Below the pieces are notes generated by a model that saw only the letters and a list, made by a program, of their open reading frames with translations, was not told where the DNA came from and searched no databases. The position numbers and the translations under genes are program-made. From assembly GCF_902859765.1 (NCBI RefSeq), contig NZ_CADIJV010000006.1:142555-206554 (forward strand): a stretch of 64,000 bases of DNA. The letters are read 5' to 3'. Positions 50,805-64,000 of this stretch are shown here, piece after piece. This DNA comes from Achromobacter pulmonis. GTDB lineage: Bacteria; Pseudomonadota; Gammaproteobacteria; Burkholderiales; Burkholderiaceae_B. Numbering within the stretch: position 1 is the first letter of the stretch; each line of letters starts with the position of its first letter.

Positions 50805-51566
50805 TTAGAAGTCCTCGCTGCGCCAGACCTTCAGTACCCGGCCGAAGACCTCGAAATCCATGCCTTCGGTGATGTCCCAGGCATCGTATTTGGTGTTTTC
50901 GGACTTGGCCCGCACCACCAGCCCGGATGCGGTGGGAATGCGCTGCAGCCGCTTGATGAAGCCTTCGCTGCCGACGCGAAAGAAATAGATGGCGTCGTAT
51001 TCAACCGCCTGCACGCCACGGTCCACGATCAGGGGATCGCCGGGATTGAACATGGGGCGCATGGAGTCGCCGAATCCCGTGACGATGCACAGGTTCTTCG
51101 AGGACGAAAAGCCCCGGACGTTCTTCTGCAGCCATTCGGGACTGACGCTCCAGCTCTGGATGACGCCGGGCTGGTCGCGCAGTTCCAGCCCGTTGCCCAT
51201 CGCGCCTCCGGTATCGAACTGGGCAATGCGCACATTGCCGTGAGTGGCGCCGCCGAGCCGCGCGGGCGGAACGGAAACGAGTCCCCCCTGCGGGGTGTCG
51301 GCCATGAGGTCCGCAGAGCATTCGCGCCACAACTCGGGGTGGGGCAGGTCCATCCAGTGGGCGGCCTGGCCCAGGGCCACGGAAAGCCTGGCGGCCAGCG
51401 CGTCGCCGACGCGGCGCGGGTTCTTGTCCCGCTTGCCTTGGAAACCCTGGAGTATCTGGTCGAGGTACTTGCGGCTGACGCCGGCGCGTTCGGCCAGGCG
51501 TTCCACGCCGCCGGCGTCGTACACGGCGTACCTGAGGTTGTTCAGTCGTATCGAGCGGATGTCCAT
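50805..51566 (-). CDS. LexA/CI-like S24-family repressor
   Basis: A 253-residue phage-type repressor. The N-terminal helix-turn-helix (about 8-60) contains GGVERLAERAGVSRKYLDQILQGFQGK read in parts. The C-terminal S24 peptidase domain has the catalytic Ser in GFGDSMRPMFNPGDPLIVD and the Lys in GFIKRLQRI. Such repressors self-cleave on RecA activation, so SOS induction of the island is expected. It is divergent from the 51865 gene, and operator-like repeats start one base beyond its own start codon, implying autoregulation. Confidence 0.93.
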   Translation of the reverse strand: MDIRSIRLNNLRYAVYDAGGVERLAERAGVSRKYLDQILQGFQGKRDKNPRRVGDALAARLSVALGQAAHWMDLPHPELWRECSADLMADTPQGGLVSVPPARLGGATHGNVRIAQFDTGGAMGNGLELRDQPGVIQSWSVSPEWLQKNVRGFSSSKNLCIVTGFGDSMRPMFNPGDPLIVDRGVQAVEYDAIYFFRVGSEGFIKRLQRIPTASGLVVRAKSENTKYDAWDITEGMDFEVFGRVLKVWRSEDF

Positions 51567-52749: not shown

Positions 52750-53020
52750 TTTCATTTGGCGCCGCCCGCGAGGCGGGGCCCAGCGGCCTGCCGCCTCGCC
52801 TTTGCCTGCATGAGCGGACCTGTCTCCCGTCCGCGGTGACCAGCAAGGGCTTGAGGCGGCAGCCCGGTGGGCGACAGCCGGAACCCGCCGCATATCGGCC
52901 GCACGCAACACGCAACGCGGCATGGCGCCCTGTGCGCACCAAAGTCGGCGATCCGCCTCCAGGCAGCTGGATTCCCCCAAAACCGCCTTCGGGCATCTCA
53001 ACACGACAAAGGAGCTACGC

Positions 53021-53614
53021 ATGGCGAACAGTTCGGCCACTGGCGGCTACCTGGCGCCGATCGCTATTTCTCCGCCCCTGGAGGATGCCGAACTCGAGGC
53101 GCTGTTCCAAGGGTTCATCGCCGGCGTGTCCGGCCTGCCCCTGGACCTGGTTCGTACGCGCTGGCTTGCCGCCGGCGTGGAACCGCCCGCGCAGACCGAG
53201 ACCTGGTGCCTGATGGACATCCGGTCGCAAACCGCGGACGCCGGTCCGGTCATCACGCATGACCCGGCCGGAGAAGGATCTGATTCATACGTTCGGCACG
53301 AAGACACCGAGGTGCTTTGCTCGATGTTCGGCCCCCGGGCGCTGCGCCATGCGGCGCAGCTGCGCGATGGCGCCGCCGTGCCGCAGAACCGCGAAGCCTT
53401 GCTGGCGCAAGGCATGGCGGTCAGCGGCATCGGGCCGATCATGGCCATGCACGAACTCGTGAATCAGCAGTGGATACGGCAGTTCGACATGACCCTGCGT
53501 TTCAAGCGCCGGATCATGCGCAGCTATCCGGTCCTGAATCTTCTGTCGGCGCAAGTCACGACGCATGCCGCGTCGCTGGCCCCGACGGACAACACCAACC
53601 ACCTTGCAGATTAA
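53021..53614 (+). CDS. Phage neck/tail completion protein (LIC_12616-like)
   Basis: A 197-residue protein of the type placed just before DUF3383 sheath genes in myovirus-like prophages (LIC_12616 family, neck terminator-like). It starts [47 protein letters not shown] lies 8 bases before the ATG. In these phages it caps the head-proximal tail end or joins tail to neck. It is the first gene of the tail operon and has no head gene before it. Confidence 0.8.
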
Positions 53615-53624
53615 GGGATTTACC

Positions 53625-55100
53625 ATGGCTAATGGATTGCCGGTATCACGCCTGATCAACGTCACGATCAATATGTCGCCGCTCGCGGCGCAGGGCGCGA
53701 GCCTGAACACGGCGCTGCTGTTGGGATCGTCCGCGATCATCGACACCGGCGAGCGCATGCGCTCCTATGGTGGCATCGATGCCGTCGCCGCCGATTTCGG
53801 CACCGCCGCGCCGGAGTACCGCGCGGCCTTGCTCTACTTCCAGCAGACGCCCCAGCCTTCGCAGCTGTACATCGGCCGCTGGGCCAAGGGCGCCACCTCG
53901 GCCACGCTGCGCGGCGCCGTGCTGTCGGCCGCCGAGAAGCAGATGGCGGCCTGGACCGCGGTGACCGCGGGCGCCTTCACGCTGTCGGTCGACGGTACCG
54001 CCAAGACGGTCAACGGCCTGGACTTCTCCGGCGCCACCAACCTGAACGGCGTCGCCACGATCATCTCGACGGCCCTGGTTTCGGCGTCGGTGCAGTGGAA
54101 CGGGGCGCAGTTCGTGGTCACCTCCAACACCTCGGGCGCCACGTCGACGCTGGGCTACGCCTCGGCCGCCGGCGCCGGCACCGACATTTCGTCGATGCTG
54201 GGCCTGACCGCGGACAAGGCCTCGGCGCCGGTCGCCGGCATGGCGGCCGAAACGCCGGAGGACGCCGTGTCGCTGTTCCTGGACCGCTTCGCCAACAAGT
54301 TCCTGGGCGTGGCCTTCGCCGATGCCGACGTCACCGACGCGCAGCACCTGGCCGTGGCCGGCCTGATCGAAGCCGATCAGCGCCACCTGTATGGCGTGTC
54401 GACCCAGGCGCCGCAGGTGCTGGACCCGACCAACCAGGACGACATCGCCAGCCAGTTGAAGGCGTTGAAGTACAAGTACTCGATCGTGCAGTTCTCCAGC
54501 GCCAGTCCCTTTGCGGTGGCTTCGCTGCTGGGCCGCATGCTGACGGTGAATTTCAACGCCAACAACACCACCATCACGCTGATGTACAAGCAGGAGCCCG
54601 GCATCGTCGCCGAGACCCTGACCAGCAGCCAGGCCGACACGCTGGCGGCCAAGAACTGCAATGTGTTCGTCAACTACGACAACGACACGGCCATCATCCA
54701 GTACGGCGTGACGCCCAGCGGCATCTTCATCGACTCGGTCTACAACGCGATCTGGTTCCGCAACCGGGTCCAGACCGACGTCTACAACCTGCTGTACACC
54801 AGCCCCACCAAGGTGCCGCAGACCGACGCCGGCAACCAGTTGATCGCTTCGGTGATCGAGGCCGCGTGCGAGGCCGCCGTCAACAACGGCTACCTGGCCC
54901 CGGGCGTGTGGAATTCGGCCGGCTTCGGCGCTCTCAAGCAGGGCGACACGCTGGCCAAGGGCTACTACGTCTACGCGCCGGCCATCGCCACGCAGTCGCA
55001 GGCCGACCGCGAGGCGCGCAAGGCCGTGCCGTTCCAGGTCGCCGCCAAGGAAGCCGGCGCCATCCATACCGTCGACGTTCTGGTCACGGTCAACCGCTAA
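53625..55100 (+). CDS. Contractile tail sheath protein (DUF3383)
   Basis: A 491-residue DUF3383 protein, the sheath subunit that contracts to drive the tube. Recognisable parts are [15 protein letters not shown] at the start, [29 protein letters not shown] in parts, and the C-terminal [22 protein letters not shown]. It has the length expected of sheath proteins in this phage type. Followed after 13 bp by the tube gene, as in contractile tail operons. Confidence 0.9.
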
Positions 55101-55113
55101 ACAGGAGTAGCAG

Positions 55114-55554
55114 ATGTCTACCTATTCGTTCGCTGATATCAGCGCCAGTCTCGTGGGCCCGGGCGGGGCGATTTCCCTGGGCTCCGGCTCGGGCGTGGCC
55201 GATGAAGGCATCGCCATCGCCGCCAAGGGTGAAAAAAGCGCCATGACGGTGGGTGCCGATGGTGAAGTCATGCACACGCTGCGGGCCGACAAGAGCGGCA
55301 CCGTGACGCTGAGCTACCTGAAGACTTCGCCGGTCAACGCCCAGCTGCAGGCCCTGTACGACGCCCAGTCGCTGGACAGCCGTCTCTGGGGCAAGAACCT
55401 CATCACCATCACCAACCCGGCTACCGGCGACGTGACGGCCTGCCGTTCGTGCGCGTTCAGCAAAAAGCCCGATCTGACCTACAAGAAGGACGGCGACGTG
55501 GTGAAGTGGACGTTCGACGCCGCGAAGATCGACACGATCCTGGGAATCTACTAA
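55114..55554 (+). CDS. Tail tube protein (DUF3277)
   Basis: A 146-residue DUF3277 protein forming the inner tube. It begins MSTYSFADISASLVGPGGAISLGSGSG and contains the strand pattern GEVMHTLRADKSGTVTLSYLKTSPVN (in parts) seen in these tube proteins. AGGAGTAG lies upstream of the ATG. Confidence 0.9.
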   Translation: MSTYSFADISASLVGPGGAISLGSGSGVADEGIAIAAKGEKSAMTVGADGEVMHTLRADKSGTVTLSYLKTSPVNAQLQALYDAQSLDSRLWGKNLITITNPATGDVTACRSCAFSKKPDLTYKKDGDVVKWTFDAAKIDTILGIY

Positions 55555-55557
55555 GCC

Positions 55558-56007
55558 ATGGCACAGGAACTTGATCTGAACGGCCACCGGTACTCCATCG
55601 GGAAACTGAGCGCCAAGCAACAGTTCCACGTGTCGCGCCGCATCGCTCCGATCGTTCCTACGCTGATCCCCGTGTTCGTCCGCCTCGCGGCGGGCGGGCG
55701 CGGGATCACCGAGGATCCGGGCGGCATGGCCGATGTCCTGCAGCCGCTGGCCGATGGCCTGGCGGCGATGAAGGACGAGGACGCCGACTACGTGCTGGAC
55801 ACCTGCATGCAGGCGGTGCAACGCCGGCAGGAGCATGGCTGGACGGCCATCTGGTCGGCCAGCCAGCACGTGCCGATGTTCCAGGACATCGACCTGTCGG
55901 TCATGTTGCCACTGGCTCTGCGCGTCATCGTCGGAAGTCTCGGGCCTTTTATACAAGGGCTGCTTACCAGCCAGAGCGGCAGCCCAGAGGCGACACAGGC
56001 TGGCTGA
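55558..56007 (+). CDS. Tail assembly chaperone, short form
   Basis: A 149-residue protein between tube and tape measure, the place of the tail assembly chaperone (lambda gpG analogue). It starts MAQELDLNGHRYSIGKLSAKQQFHVSRRIAPI and ends at TGA 56005-56007. In the same mRNA the -1 frame continues open past this stop to 56192. A run CCTTTTA at 55945-55951 is a possible slip point for a long form. Confidence 0.88.
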   Translation: MAQELDLNGHRYSIGKLSAKQQFHVSRRIAPIVPTLIPVFVRLAAGGRGITEDPGGMADVLQPLADGLAAMKDEDADYVLDTCMQAVQRRQEHGWTAIWSASQHVPMFQDIDLSVMLPLALRVIVGSLGPFIQGLLTSQSGSPEATQAG

Positions 56008-56192
56008 AGAGCCTGCCCGGTGGCGAGGATTGGTTGCTGGCGCCCGTCCTCGAGGGGCTCTGCAAGTACGAGTCCCTCAAGGACGGCTCCCTGGACCTGG
56101 CCGACATCGCGCTCCTGAACGACGCGCTGTCGGTCCGGGCAGACAACAAGGCGGAAGCGTACCGCCGCCACATGGCAGAAAAAAATGGCTAA
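55950..56192 (+). CDS. Tail assembly chaperone -1 frame extension (DUF6889-like)
   Basis: An open frame without ATG or GTG until its last seven codons, in the -1 frame relative to the chaperone. It encodes GWLKSLPGGEDWLLAPVLEGLCKYESLKDGSLDLADIALLNDAL in pieces, which matches the small DUF6889-type segment seen after chaperone genes. Either it is made as a fusion by -1 slippage near TTTTA (55947-55951), or as a separate protein from a TTG at 56034. Its stop overlaps the tape measure start (56185). Confidence 0.65.
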   Translation, partial: YTRAAYQPERQPRGDTGWLKSLPGGEDWLLAPVLEGLCKYESLKDGSLDLADIALLNDALSVRADNKAEAYRRHMAEKNG

Positions 56193-57861
56193 TACAACAA
56201 TCATGCCCATCGACCTGTCGGGGTTGATGGGCCCATTCAAGATCGACAAAGACGATCTGAATGACCTCAAGAAGACCATCGGCGACTCGCGCAAACAGAG
56301 CCTGTCCGATGCGCTGGCGGTGTTCGCCGGACGGGCGAAGAGTGTGGTCGACTTTGCCGAGAACAAGATCGCTCAGTTCGAGCAGGGCTATTTCGCCGCC
56401 AAGCTGGGCGGCACCACGGGCCGCGACATGCGGGCGCTGGAAGCGGTGGCGCAGGACTTCGGCCTTTCCGTCGGGGCGATGCGCGACGGCGTCCAGGCAC
56501 TGCACCGCAACGCGCGCGACGATCCCGCCACGGCTGCCCTGCTGGAAAAGCTGCACATCACGTCGAACGATGGCGCCGGCGGCCAGCGTAACAGCGCCGA
56601 CCTGATGCTGGCGTTGAGCGACGTGCTCAAGGGCATGGACCCGAACCAGGCCCGCGAGACGGGCAAGGGTCTGGGGCTGGAAGCCGACGTCATGGAGGCG
56701 CTGCGCAATCCCGAATTCGGTCAACGCCTTTCCGTGCAGCGCGACGCCGAGGAAAACAGCAGGATCGAGGCGGCTGGCGAGCGCGCCCACCAGTTGATGA
56801 CGACCGTGCGTCAGTTGAGTGGCTCCGTCGACGCGATGTTCGCGCAGGCGCTATTGACCATGGGGCCGAAGCTGCAGCAGACGCTCGATGGCATCGCGGC
56901 CTGGTTCAAGGAGAACGGCGAGACGGCGGGCACGCGGCTGGGCGAGGTCGGCAATTTCGTCCTGTCGCTGATGTCGCTGCTGGGACCGGTGGTCAGCGTG
57001 ATGACCTGGCTGGATGACGTCACCGGCGGGTTGAGTTCCCAGGTCATGTTGCTGGTGGGCGGATTCCTGATGCTGGGCGGCGGCGGCGTGGTGAGCGCCC
57101 TGGTGGGGCTGGTGTCGAAGTTCGATGGCCTGCGGTCGCTCGTGCGCAGGCTGGGCCCCAGCCTGGGTTCCATGGCCAGCACCATCGGCGGCCACGTGCG
57201 AAACGCCTGGTCGGCAACCAGCGGCTTCGTGCGCGGGGTATTCGGCAGGATGACGGCATTTGGCCGCGCGGCCGTGACGCAGCTCGGCGGCATGGCGGGC
57301 GCGGCCTGGTCCTGGCTGGGCAACATGGCGGCGCGCGGCGGCGCCCTGGTGGTTGACGGGGTCAAGGCGGCGGGGCAGACCGCGCTGCAGTGGGGCAAGT
57401 CCTTGTGGGAGAGCGCAGGCTCGTGGATCGGCCGTATCGCCGATGGCGCCAAGTCCGTGATCCGTAGCGTGGCGAGTTCGCCGACGGCCGTGGGCGCGGG
57501 GCTGCTCTTATACCCCAGGTCGTTGGGCGATGGCACGTTGAAAGGGCGGGAGGGCACGCCGGGCTTTCCGGCCGAACAACCCGTACCGCGGTTGAACCCG
57601 CCCGACACCGGTATCCGGCCCGAGCACATGGATGGCGTCCAGGTCGAGCCGTGGCGCTATTACCCCTCCGGCTTCGCCACCGACGCGGCCGCGGGCGCCG
57701 CATTGGTGCCGCCCGCGGCCGCGCCGGTTTCCATCAATGCCACCACGACTATCCACGTCAATGGATCGACCGATCCGAGAGCGACCGGAGAAGCCGTGGC
57801 CAATCAACAAAGCCGGGTCAACGCAGACCTGACGCGCAACCTGCAGGGATCTTATGGCTGA
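56185..57861 (+). CDS. Tail tape measure protein
   Basis: A 558-residue, mainly helical protein with Gly-rich hydrophobic segments in the middle (about 270-325, FVLSLMSLLGPVVSVMTWL and VMLLVGGFLMLGGGGVVSALVGLV) and a Pro/Ala-rich C-terminus. Position directly after the chaperone and its length mark it as tape measure. By the usual rule of about 0.15 nm per residue, the tail would be near 80 nm. It overlaps both neighbours by 8 bp. Confidence 0.88.
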   Translation: MANTTIMPIDLSGLMGPFKIDKDDLNDLKKTIGDSRKQSLSDALAVFAGRAKSVVDFAENKIAQFEQGYFAAKLGGTTGRDMRALEAVAQDFGLSVGAMRDGVQALHRNARDDPATAALLEKLHITSNDGAGGQRNSADLMLALSDVLKGMDPNQARETGKGLGLEADVMEALRNPEFGQRLSVQRDAEENSRIEAAGERAHQLMTTVRQLSGSVDAMFAQALLTMGPKLQQTLDGIAAWFKENGETAGTRLGEVGNFVLSLMSLLGPVVSVMTWLDDVTGGLSSQVMLLVGGFLMLGGGGVVSALVGLVSKFDGLRSLVRRLGPSLGSMASTIGGHVRNAWSATSGFVRGVFGRMTAFGRAAVTQLGGMAGAAWSWLGNMAARGGALVVDGVKAAGQTALQWGKSLWESAGSWIGRIADGAKSVIRSVASSPTAVGAGLLLYPRSLGDGTLKGREGTPGFPAEQPVPRLNPPDTGIRPEHMDGVQVEPWRYYPSGFATDAAAGAALVPPAAAPVSINATTTIHVNGSTDPRATGEAVANQQSRVNADLTRNLQGSYG

Positions 57862-58453
57862 CTTGAAAATCGCGGGCGCCGACATGATCGGCCTGCTGTC
57901 CAAGAAAATCGGCGACATCGTGGTGGAAGCGACCCTGAGCGAGTCTCATGACGACGCGCTCAAGATCACCAGCCACCCGGTGGAGTCGGGCCCGTATGGC
58001 AAATCGGCGATCAGCGATCATGCGTTCAAGCAACCGCTGTCGCTGACCCTGAAGTGCGCCTGGAGCAACGCCTCGTACGAGGCGTTGGCGGGCGCGCAGG
58101 CCAAGGATGTCGCCAATGGCAAGGCCGCGGCCGACGACTACGCGACCGCCATCTATTCCCAGTTGCTCAGCCTGCAGGAATCGCGCGAGCCGGTGACCGT
58201 GGTTACCAGCCGCCGGCGCTACAGCGACATGTTGATCGAGAAGATCTCGGTCGAGACCAGCAGGAACTCCTTGGGCGCCGTGTTCGCGACGGTGATGTTG
58301 CGCGAAGTGGTCGTGGTGCAGACCCGCAGCACATCGCTGCCGCCGTACGCGGACCAGAAAGAGAAAGAGAAGACCGCGGACAAGCAGAGCCTGGGCGCAA
58401 AAACCCCCCGGCCCGCGACGCCTTTCGGCGGCGGGTCGCTGTATTGGACATAG
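57854..58453 (+). CDS. Dit-like/baseplate protein
   Basis: A 199-residue protein with VVEATLSESHDDALKITSHPVESGPYGKSAISDHAF (in parts) near the start, typical of the Dit-like baseplate protein following the tape measure in this phage group. The last 40 residues are Lys/Glu then Pro-rich. It begins 8 bp inside the tape measure gene. It would help anchor the tube to the baseplate. Confidence 0.8.
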   Translation: MADLKIAGADMIGLLSKKIGDIVVEATLSESHDDALKITSHPVESGPYGKSAISDHAFKQPLSLTLKCAWSNASYEALAGAQAKDVANGKAAADDYATAIYSQLLSLQESREPVTVVTSRRRYSDMLIEKISVETSRNSLGAVFATVMLREVVVVQTRSTSLPPYADQKEKEKTADKQSLGAKTPRPATPFGGGSLYWT

Positions 58454-58462
58454 GAGATACGC

Positions 58463-58762
58463 ATGAACTACTTCGAGATACCCGTGTCGCCGATTCCGCA
58501 GGTGTTCGCGATATCGCTGGGCGGCGACGACTATCGGTTGACCTTGCAGTATCGCGACGGCTGGATCCTGGACGTGGCCGATGATCTCGGCCAGGCGCTG
58601 GTATCCGGCATCCCGCTGGTGACGGGCCTGAACCTGCTGGGACAGTATCGACACCTCGGATTCACCGGGGGGCTGCGGGTGACGGGGGCGGAATCGCCCG
58701 ACGATGCGCCGACGTTCACCGACCTGGGCCGTGGCGCCAAGCTCTACTGGGTGGCGGACTGA
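58463..58762 (+). CDS. Baseplate plug-like protein
   Basis: A 99-residue protein, MNYFEIPVSPIPQVFAISLGGDDYRLTLQYRD, resembling the small plug proteins (Pam3 gp18-like/gp31-like) found between Dit-like and hub genes. It ends 1 bp before the hub gene start. Confidence 0.78.
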   Translation: MNYFEIPVSPIPQVFAISLGGDDYRLTLQYRDGWILDVADDLGQALVSGIPLVTGLNLLGQYRHLGFTGGLRVTGAESPDDAPTFTDLGRGAKLYWVAD

Positions 58763-58763
58763 C

Positions 58764-59792
58764 ATGGCCGGGACCACGACAATGGAACCGATCGCCGTGT
58801 ATGGCGATCCGGTGGACGACGACGAAGGCGTGCGCCAGTGGGGCAGGAAGGTGTCTCTGATCGTTGGCGACGAAGAGGCCATCGACCTGTCGGCGCTGAG
58901 CTTCAGCTTCTCCATCAAGCGCAACGACGCCAAGTCGCCCAATACCGCCACCATCAAGGTGACGAATGCCAGCCGCGAAACCGCCAGCATGGTCCAGCGC
59001 GAGTTCACCCGTGTGGTGCTGCAGGCCGGCTATGAGGGCAATTACGGCGTGATCTTCCATGGCAACGTGGTGCGCGCCAAATGGGGCGGCTCGGGCGATA
59101 CCGAGACGACGCTGGAAATCACGGCGGCGGACGGTGACAAGGCCTACAACTTCGCGGTGGTCAACGCCACCCTGCCCAAGGGCAGCAGCCGCGCCGACAA
59201 AGTTCGGTTGCTGTGCTCGGCCATGAATCCCTATGGCGTCAGGCAGGGCTACGCCCCCGACCTGGGCGGCAAGAAAGCGATCCGCGGGGCGGTGATGTCC
59301 GGCATGGTGCGCGACTACCTGCAGGATGTCTGCGGCAGCGCCAACACGCTGTGGAGCATCCAGGACGGCAAGGTGGTGGTCGTGCCCGAAACCGCCTACG
59401 TACCGGGTTCGGTGCCAGTTGTGTCCCACGACACAGGCCTGGTCGGCATGCCCGAGCAGGTCGAGAAGGGCATCAAGATCCGCATGTTGCTGAACCCCAG
59501 CATCCGCGTGGGCGGCCTGATCAATCTGGACAACAGCCGCATCGCCGAATACGGCTTCGAGGATCGGACCCAGAGCAAGGACGCGGCCGAGATCGACCGC
59601 AGCGAACAGCGCCGTATCAGCAGCGACGGCTACTACTACGTGATGGAAGTCGAGCATCGCGGCCATACCCGCGACAACGAATGGTACACGGAGGCCCTCT
59701 GCCTGGCCACCGATGCCACGCTGTATCCGGGCGACCTGGGACGGGCGGGCACGCAGGACGATGCGGCCAAGCCGGCCAGTGTCGTCAAGTAG
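58764..59792 (+). CDS. Baseplate hub protein
   Basis: A 342-residue hub-type protein (gp27/gpD-like fold expected). It has FSIKRNDAKSPNTATIKVTN, GVIFHGNVVRAKWGGSGDTETTLEITAADGD (in parts) and RISSDGYYYVMEVEHRGHTRDNEWYTEALC toward the end. It links tube to spike. ATG 58764 is chosen; an ATG at 58782 would remove six residues. Confidence 0.82.
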   Translation: MAGTTTMEPIAVYGDPVDDDEGVRQWGRKVSLIVGDEEAIDLSALSFSFSIKRNDAKSPNTATIKVTNASRETASMVQREFTRVVLQAGYEGNYGVIFHGNVVRAKWGGSGDTETTLEITAADGDKAYNFAVVNATLPKGSSRADKVRLLCSAMNPYGVRQGYAPDLGGKKAIRGAVMSGMVRDYLQDVCGSANTLWSIQDGKVVVVPETAYVPGSVPVVSHDTGLVGMPEQVEKGIKIRMLLNPSIRVGGLINLDNSRIAEYGFEDRTQSKDAAEIDRSEQRRISSDGYYYVMEVEHRGHTRDNEWYTEALCLATDATLYPGDLGRAGTQDDAAKPASVVK

Positions 59793-59826: not shown

Positions 59827-60570
59827 ATGAACCGACTAGAGAACTTGAACGATCCGGGAACCGCGATCGGCGCCGCGCTGCGTGGCGCGTTGGCACAGAC
59901 CTGGACCGCCATGCCGGCCATCATCGGTGAGTTCGATCCGGTGGCAATGACATGCACCGCGCAACCGGCCATCCGGGCGCGCGTCACCGCACCCGATGGG
60001 CAGCAGTACAGCAAGGCGTTGCCGCTGCTGGTGGACTGCCCCGTGTATTTTCCGTCGGGCGGCAATTGCACGCTGACGTTTCCGGTGGCGCCGGGCGACG
60101 AATGCCTGGTGGTGTTTGCATCGCGCTGCATCGATGCCTGGTGGCAATCGGGGAAGGTCCAGGACCAGGCCGAGGTGCGGATGCATGACCTGTCCGACGG
60201 CTTTGTCTATGTAGGGGTGCGATCGCAGCCGCGGGTACTGCCCGCGGTCAGCACGACCACGACCCAACTGCGCAGCGACGATGGCTCGACCTTTCTGGAA
60301 CTGGATCCGGCCGCCGGCAAGGTGAAGATCGTGGCGCCGGGCGGCTTCGAGGTGGTGGCGCCGGTGTCCGAGTTTTCCGGACAGGTGCTGGTCAACGGCC
60401 TGTTGCGCTACCTGGCCGGCCTGGTCGGCAGCGGCGGCCAGGGCGACACCGCCCAGATCAGCGGGGTATTGAATGTGATCGGCCAGATCCTGGCCAACGG
60501 CAAGCGGGTGGACGATACCCACACCCATATCGCCCAGGGCGCCAACGCGGTGACCACGCCGCCCAACTGA
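59827..60570 (+). CDS. Gp138-type membrane-puncturing spike protein
   Basis: A 247-residue central spike with an N-terminal OB-like domain (FDPVAMTCTAQPAIRARV, VYFPSGGNCTLTFPVAPGDECLVVF) and a triple-stranded beta-helix-like middle. The C-terminus DDTHTHIAQGANAVTTPPN carries the HxH apex motif that holds an iron ion in spike tips. It pierces the outer membrane of the target cell when the sheath contracts. Confidence 0.87.
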   Translation: MNRLENLNDPGTAIGAALRGALAQTWTAMPAIIGEFDPVAMTCTAQPAIRARVTAPDGQQYSKALPLLVDCPVYFPSGGNCTLTFPVAPGDECLVVFASRCIDAWWQSGKVQDQAEVRMHDLSDGFVYVGVRSQPRVLPAVSTTTTQLRSDDGSTFLELDPAAGKVKIVAPGGFEVVAPVSEFSGQVLVNGLLRYLAGLVGSGGQGDTAQISGVLNVIGQILANGKRVDDTHTHIAQGANAVTTPPN

Positions 60571-60578
60571 GGATTCCT

Positions 60579-60932
60579 ATGCGTTATCGAAAACTGGACG
60601 CCGCTGGCGACTATGCATTTGGCTCGTCACGGGCCGACTTCCACCGCGACACGGCCGAGACCGTGGCGCAGGCCGTCAAGACGCGGCTGATGCTGGCGCG
60701 CGGCGAATGGTTCCTGGACGTGACCGAAGGCACGCCCTGGAACGGCGAGGTGCTGGGCAAGCAGCCCAGGGCCGGCTACGACTGGGCCATACGCCAGCGC
60801 ATTCTGGGCACGGCCGGTGTGACCGGCCTGGCCGAGTATTCGAGCCGGCTTGACCCGGATACCCGTGGCTTGAGCGTGACGGCTTCCATTTCAACCCTTT
60901 ACGGCACGGCCCTTGTGCAGGCGGCATTATGA
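60579..60932 (+). CDS. Baseplate wedge protein (gp25/W/gp46-like)
   Basis: A 117-residue protein with AQAVKTRLMLARGEWFLDVTEGTPW and RILGTAGVTGL, the pattern of the gp25/gpW-like wedge component of contractile baseplates. Its stop overlaps the J-like gene start by 4 bp (ATGA), fixing their coupling. Confidence 0.86.
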   Translation: MRYRKLDAAGDYAFGSSRADFHRDTAETVAQAVKTRLMLARGEWFLDVTEGTPWNGEVLGKQPRAGYDWAIRQRILGTAGVTGLAEYSSRLDPDTRGLSVTASISTLYGTALVQAAL

Positions 60933-62110
60933 CGATTCTTTCCACGGCCCCGGTCATCGACGCCGCGGGCATACGCGCACCGAGCTACGGCGAGGTGCTG
61001 GAGTATTTCAAGCAGCAGTACCGTGGCATCTACGGCGCGGATACGTATCTGGAGGCGGACAGCCAGGACGGTCAATTGCTGGCCGTGTTCGCCCTGGCCA
61101 TCCATGAGGCCAACACGGCGGCGATCAAGGTGTACAACGCGTTCTCGCCCGCCACCGCTGCCGATGCGGCGCTGTCGAACAACGTCAAGATCAACGGCCT
61201 GGCTCGCGGCGTGGCGACACGCTCGTCGGTGGACCTGCGTATCGTGGGGCAGGGCGGCGTCACCATCGTCGATGGCGTGGCCACCGATGCCAACCGCGGA
61301 CGCTGGCAATTGCCGCCCAGCGTGACCATCCCGCCGGGTGGCGAGATCACTGTCACGGCGCTGAGCCAGACGCTGGGCGCGGTGACGGCGGCGGCCGGCA
61401 GTATCAACCAGATCGGCACGCCGACGCTGGGCTGGCAGTCCGTCGAGAATCCGGCCGCCGCGACGCCGGGGGCACCGGTCGAGAGCGATGCTGCCCTGCG
61501 GGTGCGGCAGGCCATATCGGTGGCTCTGCCATCGCGCAGCGTGCTGGAAGGCACCATCGGCGCGGTGGCATCGGTGCCGGGCGTGTTGCGCCACGCTGCC
61601 TTCGAGAACGATACGCCGGTGGCCGATGCTCATGGCCTGCCGCCTCACAGCATCGCCCTGGTAGTCGATGGCGGCGACGCGGCGCGGATCGCACAGGCGA
61701 TCGCCGCCAAGAAGACGCCCGGAACCGGCACGCACGGTACCACCACGGTGGTGGTGACGGACATCTACGGCATTGCGCATCTGATCCGCTTTTTCCGGCC
61801 CACCCTTGTGCCGCTCTCGGTGGCGGTGCAGATGCGTGCGTTGCCGGGCTACACCACGGCTATCGGGCAGGCGGTGCGGCAGGCGATCGCCGACTACATC
61901 AATGCTGTGGCCATCGGCGGCGGCGCCAGCGCCTCTGTGGAATGGGCCGACGCCATCTCGGCGGCAAACGGCGTGCCGGGCAATGGCACGTTCAAGATCA
62001 CCGGCCTGACCCTGCGCGGTCCGGCCGGCAACGGCGCGCCGGATGTGGCGCTGGCCTTCAATGAAGCCGCCGCGGCGATGCCGGACGACGTGACGCTCAC
62101 GGTGACCTGA
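60929..62110 (+). CDS. Baseplate J-like wedge protein
   Basis: A 393-residue baseplate J/gp47-like protein. Typical parts are ADTYLEADSQDGQLLAVFALAIHEANTAA (in parts), GATPGAPVESDAALRVR and GHATENDTP-like VLRHAAFENDTPV. It forms the wedge dimer that opens during sheath contraction. Confidence 0.9.
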   Translation: MTILSTAPVIDAAGIRAPSYGEVLEYFKQQYRGIYGADTYLEADSQDGQLLAVFALAIHEANTAAIKVYNAFSPATAADAALSNNVKINGLARGVATRSSVDLRIVGQGGVTIVDGVATDANRGRWQLPPSVTIPPGGEITVTALSQTLGAVTAAAGSINQIGTPTLGWQSVENPAAATPGAPVESDAALRVRQAISVALPSRSVLEGTIGAVASVPGVLRHAAFENDTPVADAHGLPPHSIALVVDGGDAARIAQAIAAKKTPGTGTHGTTTVVVTDIYGIAHLIRFFRPTLVPLSVAVQMRALPGYTTAIGQAVRQAIADYINAVAIGGGASASVEWADAISAANGVPGNGTFKITGLTLRGPAGNGAPDVALAFNEAAAAMPDDVTLTVT

Positions 62111-62111
62111 C

Positions 62112-62777
62112 ATGGCCAACTCTGACGACTACATCGCGCGGCTATCCGCGTACCACCGCGCCAAGCCCCGTTTCAGCGCCACCGTTGCCGCCCTGTGCGG
62201 CGCGGCGGCGGGCGTGCGCGAACTGTACGGCGGCATGCCGGCGGCTTTTGACCTGGACCGCGCCATTGGCGCGCAGTTGGACGCCGTGGGGCATTGGGTG
62301 GGACTCGACCGCAAGGTCAGTACACCGATCGCCAATGTCTATTTCTCGCACGACATCGACGGCCTGGGCTTCGACCAGGGCGTGTGGCAAGGCCCCTTCG
62401 ATCCGGACAGCGGCCTGACCGAGCTGGACGACGATACCTACCGGCTGTTGTTGCGCGCCAAGATCGGCGCCAACCACTGGGACGGCACGCTGGAGGCCTC
62501 GGCCGCCATCCTGGACCGCATCTTCGGCGGCGGCACCCACGTGTTCATTCAGGACAACGGCGACATGTCGGTTGACATCGGTGTCGCCGGCACGCCGCCG
62601 TCTGCGTTGTTCCTGGCACTGCTGACGGGCGGGTACATCCCGCTCAAACCGCAGGGCGTACGCATCAGTTATTACGTCATCCCCTCGCAAGAGGGGCCTC
62701 TGTTCGGTTTTGACGTTCAAAACCAATACATCTCGGGGTTCGACGGCGGACTCTGGGGTTCGCTTTTTGCCGGTTGA
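62112..62777 (+). CDS. DUF2612 baseplate/tail protein
   Basis: A 221-residue DUF2612 protein, occupying the place of gpI between J and fibre. It has DRAIGAQLDAVGHWVGLDRKV and LDDDTYRLLLRAKIGANHWDGT. It probably connects the fibre to the wedge. AUG starts 1 bp after the J-like stop. Confidence 0.88.
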   Translation: MANSDDYIARLSAYHRAKPRFSATVAALCGAAAGVRELYGGMPAAFDLDRAIGAQLDAVGHWVGLDRKVSTPIANVYFSHDIDGLGFDQGVWQGPFDPDSGLTELDDDTYRLLLRAKIGANHWDGTLEASAAILDRIFGGGTHVFIQDNGDMSVDIGVAGTPPSALFLALLTGGYIPLKPQGVRISYYVIPSQEGPLFGFDVQNQYISGFDGGLWGSLFAG

Positions 62778-62791
62778 ATAAGGACAAATCC

Positions 62792-63778
62792 GTGGCTATC
62801 AATCAAATTCTTCCTTTCGGCACCGTGCCCGGCGCCAACGTGCTCGCTCCCGCCGACTATCAGGCCCTGGCCGCCCGGCTGGCCGGTTTCTCGGCCGGCA
62901 TGGCCAAATCCAGGGAACTCAACACCGTCTGGCGCCAGGCGTCCTTCGTGGCCGCCATGATCGGCCAGTACATCGCCGACAAGGCCGGCCAGGACGTGCT
63001 GGACAACGGCGACCTGGCGGCGCTGCAGGAGCAATTCGTGGCGGCGCTGGCGGCATCGCCTGCGCTGACGGGTACTCCGACGGCGCCGACGCCGGCAGCC
63101 AGCGACCAAAGCACCCGCATTGCGACGACCGCATTCGTGGCGGGCAACTTTCCCCGCATCTATTCGATCAGCGCGCTGCCGACGCAGGATGTGGGGCCCA
63201 TCATCGTGGCGGAGTGCGCGGAAGTGTGGAACTGGGTTTCCGGACAGTATTTCACTGGCTACCGTTCGCCGTTATGCGGCCGCCCCTTGGATGGCCATAC
63301 CAATCTGCCGCTGGCCAGTGAAGTCGATGCCACCGGCGGGCTGTTGTCGAAGGCCGATTACGCCGCGCTGTGGGGCTATGCGCAGGAGCAGGGGCTGGTA
63401 AAGACAGAGGCCCTGTGGTCGGCGAACCGCGGCAGTCACTGGTTCTCGGACTATTCGGCAACGCAGTTCCGGGTGCCGGATCTGCGCGATATGTTCCGTC
63501 GATTTACCGGAACTGACGCTGACACTGCAAATGCAAGGTCACTGGCGAGCCACCAGGCTGATGCCCTGCAGGGGCATGGGCATGACCTTTGGTATCCCTT
63601 CACCGGGACGACTTCTGGTGGCGGTTCCCTGACTGTCTCGTTGTCGACAAACCCCGCCTCCGGAATATCGATGAATTACGCATCAGGGATCCTTAGAGAT
63701 GGTGGGCGCGGTACGCCCCGCGTCGCCACGGAGACCCGCCCTGCGAATACCGCTTACCCCCCGCGCATTCACGTATGA
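62792..63778 (+). CDS. Tail fibre protein
   Basis: A 328-residue fibre. The N-terminal part is a baseplate attachment region, followed by TPTAPTPAASDQSTRIATTAFV, a repeat unit common in fibres. The tail-collar-like C-terminal part has FRVPDLRDMFRRFTG, and the end is ATETRPANTAYPPRIHV. GTG 62792 with AAGGA at 62780-62784 is preferred over TTG 62774, which overlaps the DUF2612 stop. The last 85 residues, from DTANAR on, are replaceable by the opposite-strand copy (63781-64000). Confidence 0.88.
   Translation: MAINQILPFGTVPGANVLAPADYQALAARLAGFSAGMAKSRELNTVWRQASFVAAMIGQYIADKAGQDVLDNGDLAALQEQFVAALAASPALTGTPTAPTPAASDQSTRIATTAFVAGNFPRIYSISALPTQDVGPIIVAECAEVWNWVSGQYFTGYRSPLCGRPLDGHTNLPLASEVDATGGLLSKADYAALWGYAQEQGLVKTEALWSANRGSHWFSDYSATQFRVPDLRDMFRRFTGTDADTANARSLASHQADALQGHGHDLWYPFTGTTSGGGSLTVSLSTNPASGISMNYASGILRDGGRGTPRVATETRPANTAYPPRIHV
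63523..63534 (+). repeat. Inverted repeat, left copy (candidate inversion site)
   Basis: CACTGCAAATGC here is found again in inverted orientation at 63989-64000, where the window ends, so the true repeat may be longer. Both copies fall in the same codon frame (ACT GCA AAT GC) of the two fibre ends. Confidence 0.7.
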
Positions 63779-63780
63779 AA

Positions 63781-64000
63781 TTAGGCATGAATTCGTGGGG
63801 GATAGGCGACGTTGCGCGGACGCGTTTCGGCGGTGCCGGCGTCGGGGAACAGGCTGTCCATCTGGGATATGCCCTGCGACTCTCCGCCAGGCAGCGCATA
63901 GGTGGCAGCGTCCGAGTCCGTTCCAATAATTCGCCAGGTCTTGCTCTTGACCCGTACCTGCGCGGCCTGCCTGCTGCCGAGCACTCTCGCATTTGCAGTG
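63781..64000 (-). CDS. Alternative tail fibre C-terminus on the opposite strand (partial)
   Basis: A 72-codon stretch, open to the window edge, ends AETRPRNVAYPPRIHA just like the plus-strand fibre's ATETRPANTAYPPRIHV. It begins (reading from the edge) TANARVLGSRQAAQV against TANARSLASHQADAL. The middle part differs fully. Two base pairs separate its stop from the plus-strand stop. It looks like a silent fibre end that becomes expressed after inversion; if not, it is a remnant of a second fibre gene. Confidence 0.75.
   Translation of the reverse strand, partial: TANARVLGSRQAAQVRVKSKTWRIIGTDSDAATYALPGGESQGISQMDSLFPDAGTAETRPRNVAYPPRIHA
63989..64000 (-). repeat. Inverted repeat, right copy (candidate inversion site)
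   Basis: The reverse complement reads CACTGCAAATGC, identical to 63523-63534. The copy is cut by the window end. Confidence 0.7.

Follow-up and report, generated by a model that had tools for sequence, protein, structure and literature searches.

A candidate tail-fibre-tip shufflon beside a tyrosine recombinase in a putative R-type tailocin island of Achromobacter

Introduction

Tailocins are mostly described as narrow, fixed-target weapons. Several systems are known in which the C-terminal end of a binding protein is exchanged by DNA inversion, among them two that use a tyrosine recombinase. Rin, in the accessible part of its description, is a tyrosine-recombinase shufflon of receptor-binding proteins in Bifidobacterium prophages (PMC6109161). 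For Rci, the enzyme of the R64 shufflon, the available part of Katalinic et al. 2025 reports an extra C-terminal domain in Rci and 14 homologues, which is thought to mediate the cooperative binding underlying inversion-only action (PMC11852207). Prophage tail-fibre inversions have been reported in four species of Proteobacteria, according to the accessible part of a further study (PMC5903667). Achromobacter is mentioned in the text of neither PMC11852207 nor PMC5903667, and the former also contains no mention of tail or phage. A literature search for tailocin and shufflon together, with subscription journals mostly outside its reach, returned nothing. For Achromobacter, the accessible portions of the texts examined held a plasmid pilV case as the only shufflon and, in the one text on tailocins, a general remark.

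Here we describe a locus of Achromobacter that, judging from its sequence, is very probably a shufflon of tail-fibre tips flipped by an adjacent tyrosine recombinase and located in an R-type tailocin island.

Results

The fibre gene, its alternative ends and the 12-bp site

The window, meaning the whole 64,000-nucleotide stretch analysed, corresponds to positions 142555-206554 of contig C6 (206,554 bases), which ends at window base 64000, exactly at a site. Near this edge lies a tail fibre gene (62792..63778, plus strand; phrog_11303 and phrog_1858, tail fibre) comprising a constant part of 244 residues and, as assembled, variable end A. Comparison with relatives showed conservation up to TANAR and variability beyond it. 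End A (63524..63778, plus strand, 84 residues) is fused to the fibre at a putative crossover site S1, CACTGCAAATGC, located by sequence match at 63523..63534 on the plus strand and read T-A-N-A. Convergent with it is a silent variable end B of 72 residues (63781..63999, minus strand), which begins in the second candidate site S2 (63989..64000, minus strand); contig C6 stops on the last base of S2. A structure prediction for the fibre gave an uninformative model, with a mean pLDDT of 31.6 and every residue at or below 50.

The geometry described for this segment in the earlier note was reproduced in full. The minus-strand open frame stops at 63781, two bases from the stop of the fibre gene (62792-63778), and the C-termini are near-identical (RPANTAYPPRIHV in the fibre gene, RPRNVAYPPRIHA in the minus-strand frame). 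The inverted repeat CACTGCAAATGC at 63523-63534 and 63989-64000 is perfect, exactly 12 nt long and placed in the T-A-N-A frame on both sides. When the segment 63523-64000 was flipped computationally, the 84-residue end was exchanged for the 72-residue end and the frame stayed open, giving a 316-residue fibre with end B. Exact copies of CACTGCAAATGC occur five times in the whole assembly (5,673,430 bases), on contigs C6, C20 and C59. Since all five copies lie at two fibre cassettes and the same 12-mer written backwards had no match in the 5.67-Mb assembly, the site is not a chance match.

Continuation on a second contig and two junctions in one assembly

Contig C59 (12,144 bases, locus L008) opens with the exact reverse complement of window positions 63633-63523, a stretch of 111 bases, and departs from the window sequence directly after the site, into another flank. 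The site copy on C59 lies at L008:100-111 and is followed by a silent fibre end C (L008:122-343, minus strand; C-terminus RPVNTAYYPRLHV), with a third site S3 at about L008 333-344 (minus strand) that carries one change (CACTGCAAATGT). Beyond it are a fibre-assembly-like protein (L008:372-722, plus strand; phrog_105, E 9.4e-8), a tyrosine recombinase of 340 residues (L008:741-1760, minus strand; PF00589), two conserved phage proteins of unassigned function (phrog_1024 and phrog_3108), an Rz-like spanin (L008:2908-3183; phrog_1026) and, from about 3524, host genes. Over C6 and C59 together, the sites are oriented plus (S1), minus (S2) and minus (S3), and ends A, B and C are all open in the frame of the site up to the conserved C-terminus. 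In the window's genome the host flanks of the island are split over the two contigs, and the synteny of these flanks indicates that C6 and C59 belong together.

Within a single assembly, the start of end A is therefore found in two contexts: on C6 it is joined to the fibre, and on C59 it is connected via the site to end C. When the assembly was searched for the fibre and the two ends, no additional copy of end A or B came up, and the constant part of the fibre was present only on C6 and C20, apart from a weak 33-nt match on C27. Because a single-copy chromosome cannot carry both end-A junctions, both orientations appear to have been present in the sequenced culture. The likeliest reading of the two contigs is a mixed culture, in which one state has A at the fibre with B and C silent and the other has B at the fibre with A and C silent. 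That end A is duplicated, giving rise to the two junctions, is a weaker alternative. Repeats of 12 bp are by themselves too short to break short-read assemblies or to drive homologous recombination.

It is extremely unlikely that this arrangement reflects two or more separate or degenerate fibre genes that happen to lie face to face and do not switch. Broken ends do occur in some relatives, and complete genomes can show one state only, which would both suit such an explanation; however, upstream of end B there is no second fibre start, the sign that the earlier note had named as refuting, and C59 carries end C and the assembly gene there. The confinement of the constant part to C6 and C20, the two neighbours of end A and the exact inversions between near-identical contigs of relatives described below likewise speak against it.

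The earlier note had attributed the inversion to a serine recombinase of the Gin/Cin type acting on two alternative ends, and neither the enzyme class nor the number of ends was borne out. A two-state switch by a Gin/Cin/Hin-type serine recombinase, as in Mu, P1 and carotovoricin, would have a comparable anatomy of convergent fibre ends inside inverted repeats, yet its probability here is close to nil: the serine invertase family PF00239 had no match in the whole assembly, while the same search was positive in 10 of the 14 control genomes, the adjoining gene encodes a tyrosine recombinase, and the locus has at least three ends, as in a multi-end shufflon. Past position 64000, C59 supplied a third site and a recombinase; the recombinase is not of the Gin/Hin type, and the repeat is no longer than 12 nt.

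Natural inversions among relatives

We made eight pairwise comparisons of near or related contigs for their cassette state, and the state differed in four of them (L203 with L202, L165 and L184; L168 with L213). The clearest case is provided by L203 and L202, from two metagenomes. Their left flanks agree at 99.97% over 2,876 bp and their right flanks at 99.8% over 533 bp, whereas the intervening 474 bp, from the first to the second site, are exactly inverted at 100% identity; such exact flips come from metagenome contigs of relatives, a source other than the window's strain. L165 is in the same state as L202 and differs from L203. L184 shares its left flank with L203 (99.66%) and has the fourth end at the fibre. 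In the comparison of L168, the contig of L082, with L213, the flank is 99.85% identical over 4,041 bp, and the fourth end of L168 is the fibre end in L213; both fibres are tailocin-type by their N-terminal motif.

In the remaining comparisons, the cassette state of L109 and L084 (98.9% identical) was the same. L220 and L077 are contigs from a single genome record set; 91 bp of one end are common to both, and their flanks differ. The pairs L192/L175 and L195/L160 compare different elements. L225 carries the fibre flank on both sides of a two-end segment and looks as a join of both states would. In L088 (A. insuavis LMG 26845; identical with L042), the same fibre end was observed at the first and the last position (8362 and 9582 of the reversed locus), perhaps reflecting a mixed-state assembly instead of a true duplicate.

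Taken together, the two alternative junctions in one assembly and the flipped natural pairs in relatives strongly support DNA inversion as the process that swaps the fibre ends, as the earlier note had proposed.

The adjacent tyrosine recombinase

The recombinase beside the cassette on C59 matches PF00589 in Pfam with an E-value of 3.9e-17, and its best PHROG match is the integrase family phrog_1. Across all 20 aligned homologues (48-96% identical), R166, K191, H266, R269 and Y300 are invariant; we take these to be the catalytic R, K, H, R and Y by the residue names customary for tyrosine recombinases. At position 291, the place of the second catalytic His, 11 of the 20 homologues, including the closest ones, have Asn and the nine more distant ones have His, with the same site in both groups.

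Compared with Rci of an IncI1-type plasmid (L101), to which it is 38% identical, the cassette recombinase has 40 residues behind the catalytic Tyr versus 113, and the alignment with L101 Rci showed that an Rci-like extra C-terminal domain is absent. The enzyme matched 2,273 plasmid records and 61 records of a phage collection, all at less than 60% identity, and a PDB sequence search at E 0.001 gave no match.

A related recombinase was found past the first site in 28 of the 31 viral loci with at least 2.5 kb of sequence there, mostly within 4 kb. Three loci with the same first site (L167, L193 and L222) had no recombinase match in the 3.3 to 6.4 kb past it, and may depend on an enzyme acting in trans or on one too unlike for detection. 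Conversely, the recombinases of L054 (51%) and L057 (36%) had no cassette of site CACTGCAAATGC nearby when up to one mismatch was allowed, and L053, L055 and L056 are recombinase fragments. In Pseudomonas phage Tr60_Ab31, one gene lies between the site-specific recombinase gene and the fibre gene, and in stretches of Paraburkholderia terrae, P. luteola and Burkholderia BgVeeders33 a recombinase gene stands without an annotated fibre beside it. In G002, the enzyme is 69% identical and both sites read CACTGCTAATGC, suggesting that site and enzyme can change together.

From its position and conserved residues, we infer that the adjacent tyrosine recombinase performs the inversion. The gene could instead be the integrase of the element, with homologous recombination moving the ends, and its best match to an integrase family is in line with this. 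Such a division of roles is nevertheless very unlikely, as homologous recombination would need more than the 12 bp on which the breakpoints lie, and a related enzyme lies near most cassettes with the same site. In addition, the C20 element described below carries, some 43 kb away from its cassette recombinase, a further tyrosine recombinase gene; this distant gene is likely the prophage integrase, which argues against an integrase role for the cassette recombinase copy on C20.

We presume that only inversions occur. In L070 as many as six tandem direct ends persist, which suggests that deletion is rare in this system even without the Rci C-terminal domain.

The tailocin island and its chromosomal place

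The genes upstream of the fibre form a contractile-tail cluster on the plus strand. A conserved tail-cluster protein of unassigned function (52952..53614; phrog_1973) is followed by the tail sheath (DUF3383; 53583..55100; PF11863, 3.1e-153, and phrog_205 tail sheath, 1.5e-126) and by a probable tail tube (55114..55554), assigned from its position behind the sheath and matching phrog_280, a virion structural protein of the head and packaging category. Next come a tail assembly chaperone (55558..56007; phrog_1688, 3.8e-36), the tape measure protein (56185..57861; phrog_2276, 1.5e-17), a tail protein (57854..58453; phrog_817) and a virion structural protein (58463..58762; phrog_349, head and packaging in PHROGs). 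The baseplate genes comprise a hub (58722..59792; phrog_196, 2.5e-72), a possible gpV-like spike whose match is weak (59827..60570; TIGR01644, 1.1e-6, 28.4 bits against a cut-off of 46.75) and which has no PHROG match, a wedge (60579..60932; phrog_120, 3e-26) and a baseplate J protein (60929..62110; PF04865, 3e-10). A DUF2612 protein (62112..62777; PF11041, 2.2e-55; phrog_587, structural, head and packaging in PHROGs) directly precedes the fibre.

An S24-peptidase repressor of the LexA/CI-like type (50805..51566, minus strand; Pfam Peptidase_S24, 1.2e-14) likely controls the island; its counterpart in the G027 island matches the phrog_4 repressor. Lysis functions are represented by the Rz-like spanin alone.

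Both host flanks were present in 14 of the 14 genomes searched, and in four of these (G000, which is the window's genome, G002, G007 and G027) the island occupies the identical chromosomal site. About 18.8 to 21.2 kb, including the recombinase, separate the flanks in G002, G007 and G027, and the scanned part of the G027 island has the same repressor and tail genes. In G005, G016, G030 and G032 the flanks are only 0.5 to 0.64 kb apart, corresponding to an empty site. The six remaining genomes (G009, G013, G017, G018, G021 and G022) hold 2.2 to 2.6 kb of other content between the flanks.

The proteins scanned between the host flanks had no match to terminase, portal or capsid families. Since contractile-tail, baseplate and fibre genes thus lie between host genes without these families, the island is by its anatomy an R-type tailocin of Achromobacter. 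One could also see in it a part or remnant of a prophage whose tails serve infection, given that related cassettes occur in prophages and that three window proteins match head-and-packaging PHROGs (phrog_280, phrog_349 and phrog_587). We consider this unlikely: the three proteins lie within the tail and baseplate order, do not belong to the terminase, portal or capsid families and, by their place, can be taken as tail parts; the lack of terminase, portal and capsid matches extends to the scanned part of the G027 island; and four genomes carry the island at one chromosomal site that stands empty in four others. For an R-type tailocin, switching of the fibre ends would most likely change which strains are killed.

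A family of related cassettes

Among 41 loci and 72 IMG/VR stretches, intact cassettes had 2 to 9 ends, with nine in L222; ends from the 72 stretches were filtered to those starting T-A-N. Removal of six endless loci, in the sense that they held no fibre end, and of entries repeating a contig or genome left 85 cassettes; as the near-identical L172/L073, L165/L202/L203, L082/L213 and L084/L109 were retained, the counts are not fully independent. These 85 cassettes, 27 of which are single-ended and mostly shortened contigs, yielded 172 complete ends, which fell into 106 families when grouped at 60% identity. Twenty-eight of the 106 families recurred in at least two cassettes, and 15 of the 28 were seen at the fibre as well as in silent positions. 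In the variable core, the median aligned identity within a cassette was 37% (239 pairs).

In an alignment of 93 distinct sites, the 12 bp are nearly invariant. The outer flank before them varies with the place of the site in the cassette: CGCTGA precedes first sites, the tail of the preceding end stands before middle sites and TTTG before most last sites. In 51 of the 56 cassettes with at least two ends including a minus one, plus ends precede minus ends around one site-free hinge. Of the five that deviate, four are contigs truncated at a site, leaving L207 as a true exception. This locus (L207:2768-4606) also contains a site-like repeat with a changed start, CGCTGCAAATGC.

With the plus-then-minus layout, each inversion swaps the tails of two stacks. 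In simulation, three ends, as found here, gave four reachable states with all three ends expressible, and the simulated case of seven ends gave 1,440 reachable states. Decayed ends with an early or lost stop were seen in L051, L066 and L043, in the first two at the fibre itself.

The exact first-site 20-mer was found in 17 of 43 Achromobacter genomes. An order-wide sample of 399 genomes, of which 396 were outside the genus, contained it once, in the window's own genome, and a separate scan revealed a three-end cassette in Bordetella pseudohinzii.

A second cassette and tips common to tailocin and prophages

The window's genome carries a second, two-end cassette on contig C20 (L009:12278-15257) with its own recombinase, 94% identical to that on C59. 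The same 12-bp site is present there within a longer inverted repeat, of about 36 bp, and the cassette sits in a prophage with terminase and portal. The same tip families occur in tailocin-type and phage-type cassettes, which were told apart only by the N-terminal motif of the fibre; in one example, the tip is 93% identical at the nucleotide level versus 80% for the constant part. Among 76 pairs, 17 had tips whose identity exceeded that of the constant part by 10 points or more; the other 59 did not.

Given identical sites and enzymes that are 94% alike, the enzymes might act on each other's cassettes. A wider reading, in which tailocin and prophages share one invertase and site system, the enzymes cross-act, tips are traded across the genus and inversion-only action is achieved without the Rci C-terminal domain, is a possibility that we advance tentatively, with the balance somewhat against it.

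Contig breaks at sites

Contigs of other Achromobacter drafts also part at sites. In G015 (inferred to be A. ruhlandii LMG 1866), contigs C41 and C10 overlap by exactly 111 bases and diverge at a site; G006 (A. kerstersii LMG 3441) and G008 (A. deleyi LMG 3458) have contigs that stop at a site, and in A. piechaudii NBRC 102461 one contig begins at a site. Overall, a break at a site affects four of nine full-length loci from named drafts, or five of ten when the window's genome is counted.

In IMG/VR, the first-site 20-mer was located at 73 places in 72 stretches. The contig ended past the first site within 20 nt in 8 of the 73, within 150 nt in 19 and within 250 nt in 23, versus one end within 250 nt on the opposite side; as fibres sit near the ends of tail clusters, the two sides form an imperfect control, and the telling part of these counts is the pile-up of contig ends at 0-7 nt past the first site. 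A shufflon would offer a reason for the frequent assembly breaks at the fibre locus in Achromobacter.

Discussion

The locus combines features of a shufflon: at least three sites in both orientations, ends in frame with one constant gene and inversions seen in relatives. With the Rci type it shares a tyrosine recombinase with catalytic residues adjoining the cassette, and it lacks the Rci C-terminal domain. In the mechanism that we propose, one fibre gene with a constant 244-residue part would be followed by several alternative C-terminal ends, each opening with the same 12-bp site in the same frame. The tyrosine recombinase would pair sites of opposite orientation and invert the DNA between them, fusing another end to the fibre. 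A single cell would then make one fibre type and a population several, and the switch would alter the killing spectrum of the tailocin.

If this is true, the cells of one culture could aim their killing particle at different targets, so that a clone would make mixed killing specificities, of which a genome sequence shows one of several. This raises the questions of how frequently switching takes place, whether it responds to any cue and how producers spare their siblings. How deletion is avoided by shufflon enzymes is a further question, for which the compact enzyme and its 12-bp site form a natural counterpart to Rci.

Among inversion systems built on a serine enzyme, carotovoricin is the one that also concerns a tailocin. 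Its invertase, Ein, is a serine invertase of the Gin/Hin type, whereas the genome studied here has no serine recombinase match. What is shared, in the accessible part of the source, is a tailocin that changes the C-terminus of its fibre by DNA inversion, there through Ein (PMC13195805). Min of p15B, Gin of Mu and Cin of P1 likewise invert phage tail-fibre ends, with several ends in the case of Min, as far as the available part of the text describes them (PMC6109161); these are serine recombinases, in contrast to the tyrosine recombinase here. The Proteobacterial prophages resemble our case in that inversions of the fibre region were detected from sequence data, again according to the accessible part of the study (PMC5903667).

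In its layout and presumed working, the locus most closely resembles Rin, and the R64 shufflon is also alike. As described in the available part of PMC6109161, Rin has a tyrosine recombinase beside the constant part of a receptor-binding protein and several variable C-terminal ends, a short asymmetric repeat before each end (11 bp versus 12 bp here), mixed arrangements in the sequence data and a recombinase apart from the integrase. Judged from the same part of that source, the differences are that Rin serves a receptor-binding protein of Bifidobacterium prophages, whereas the present system is found with the fibre of a contractile tailocin and in Achromobacter prophages, and that its site has another sequence; the likeness is one of layout. 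In R64, as far as the accessible text of PMC11852207 goes, Rci inverts several adhesin C-terminal ends between short asymmetric sfx sites with a variable outer flank. Its target is PilV in place of a tail fibre, and the Achromobacter cassettes differ from it in having one site per end and the plus-then-minus order around a site-free hinge. Rci moreover carries behind its Tyr the C-terminal domain that the cassette recombinase lacks. What appears to be new is thus a tyrosine-recombinase shufflon in a tailocin whose site and tip families are common with prophages of the same genus, set apart from R64 and Rin by its recombinase without the Rci C-terminal domain, by its site and by its use in tailocins and prophages.
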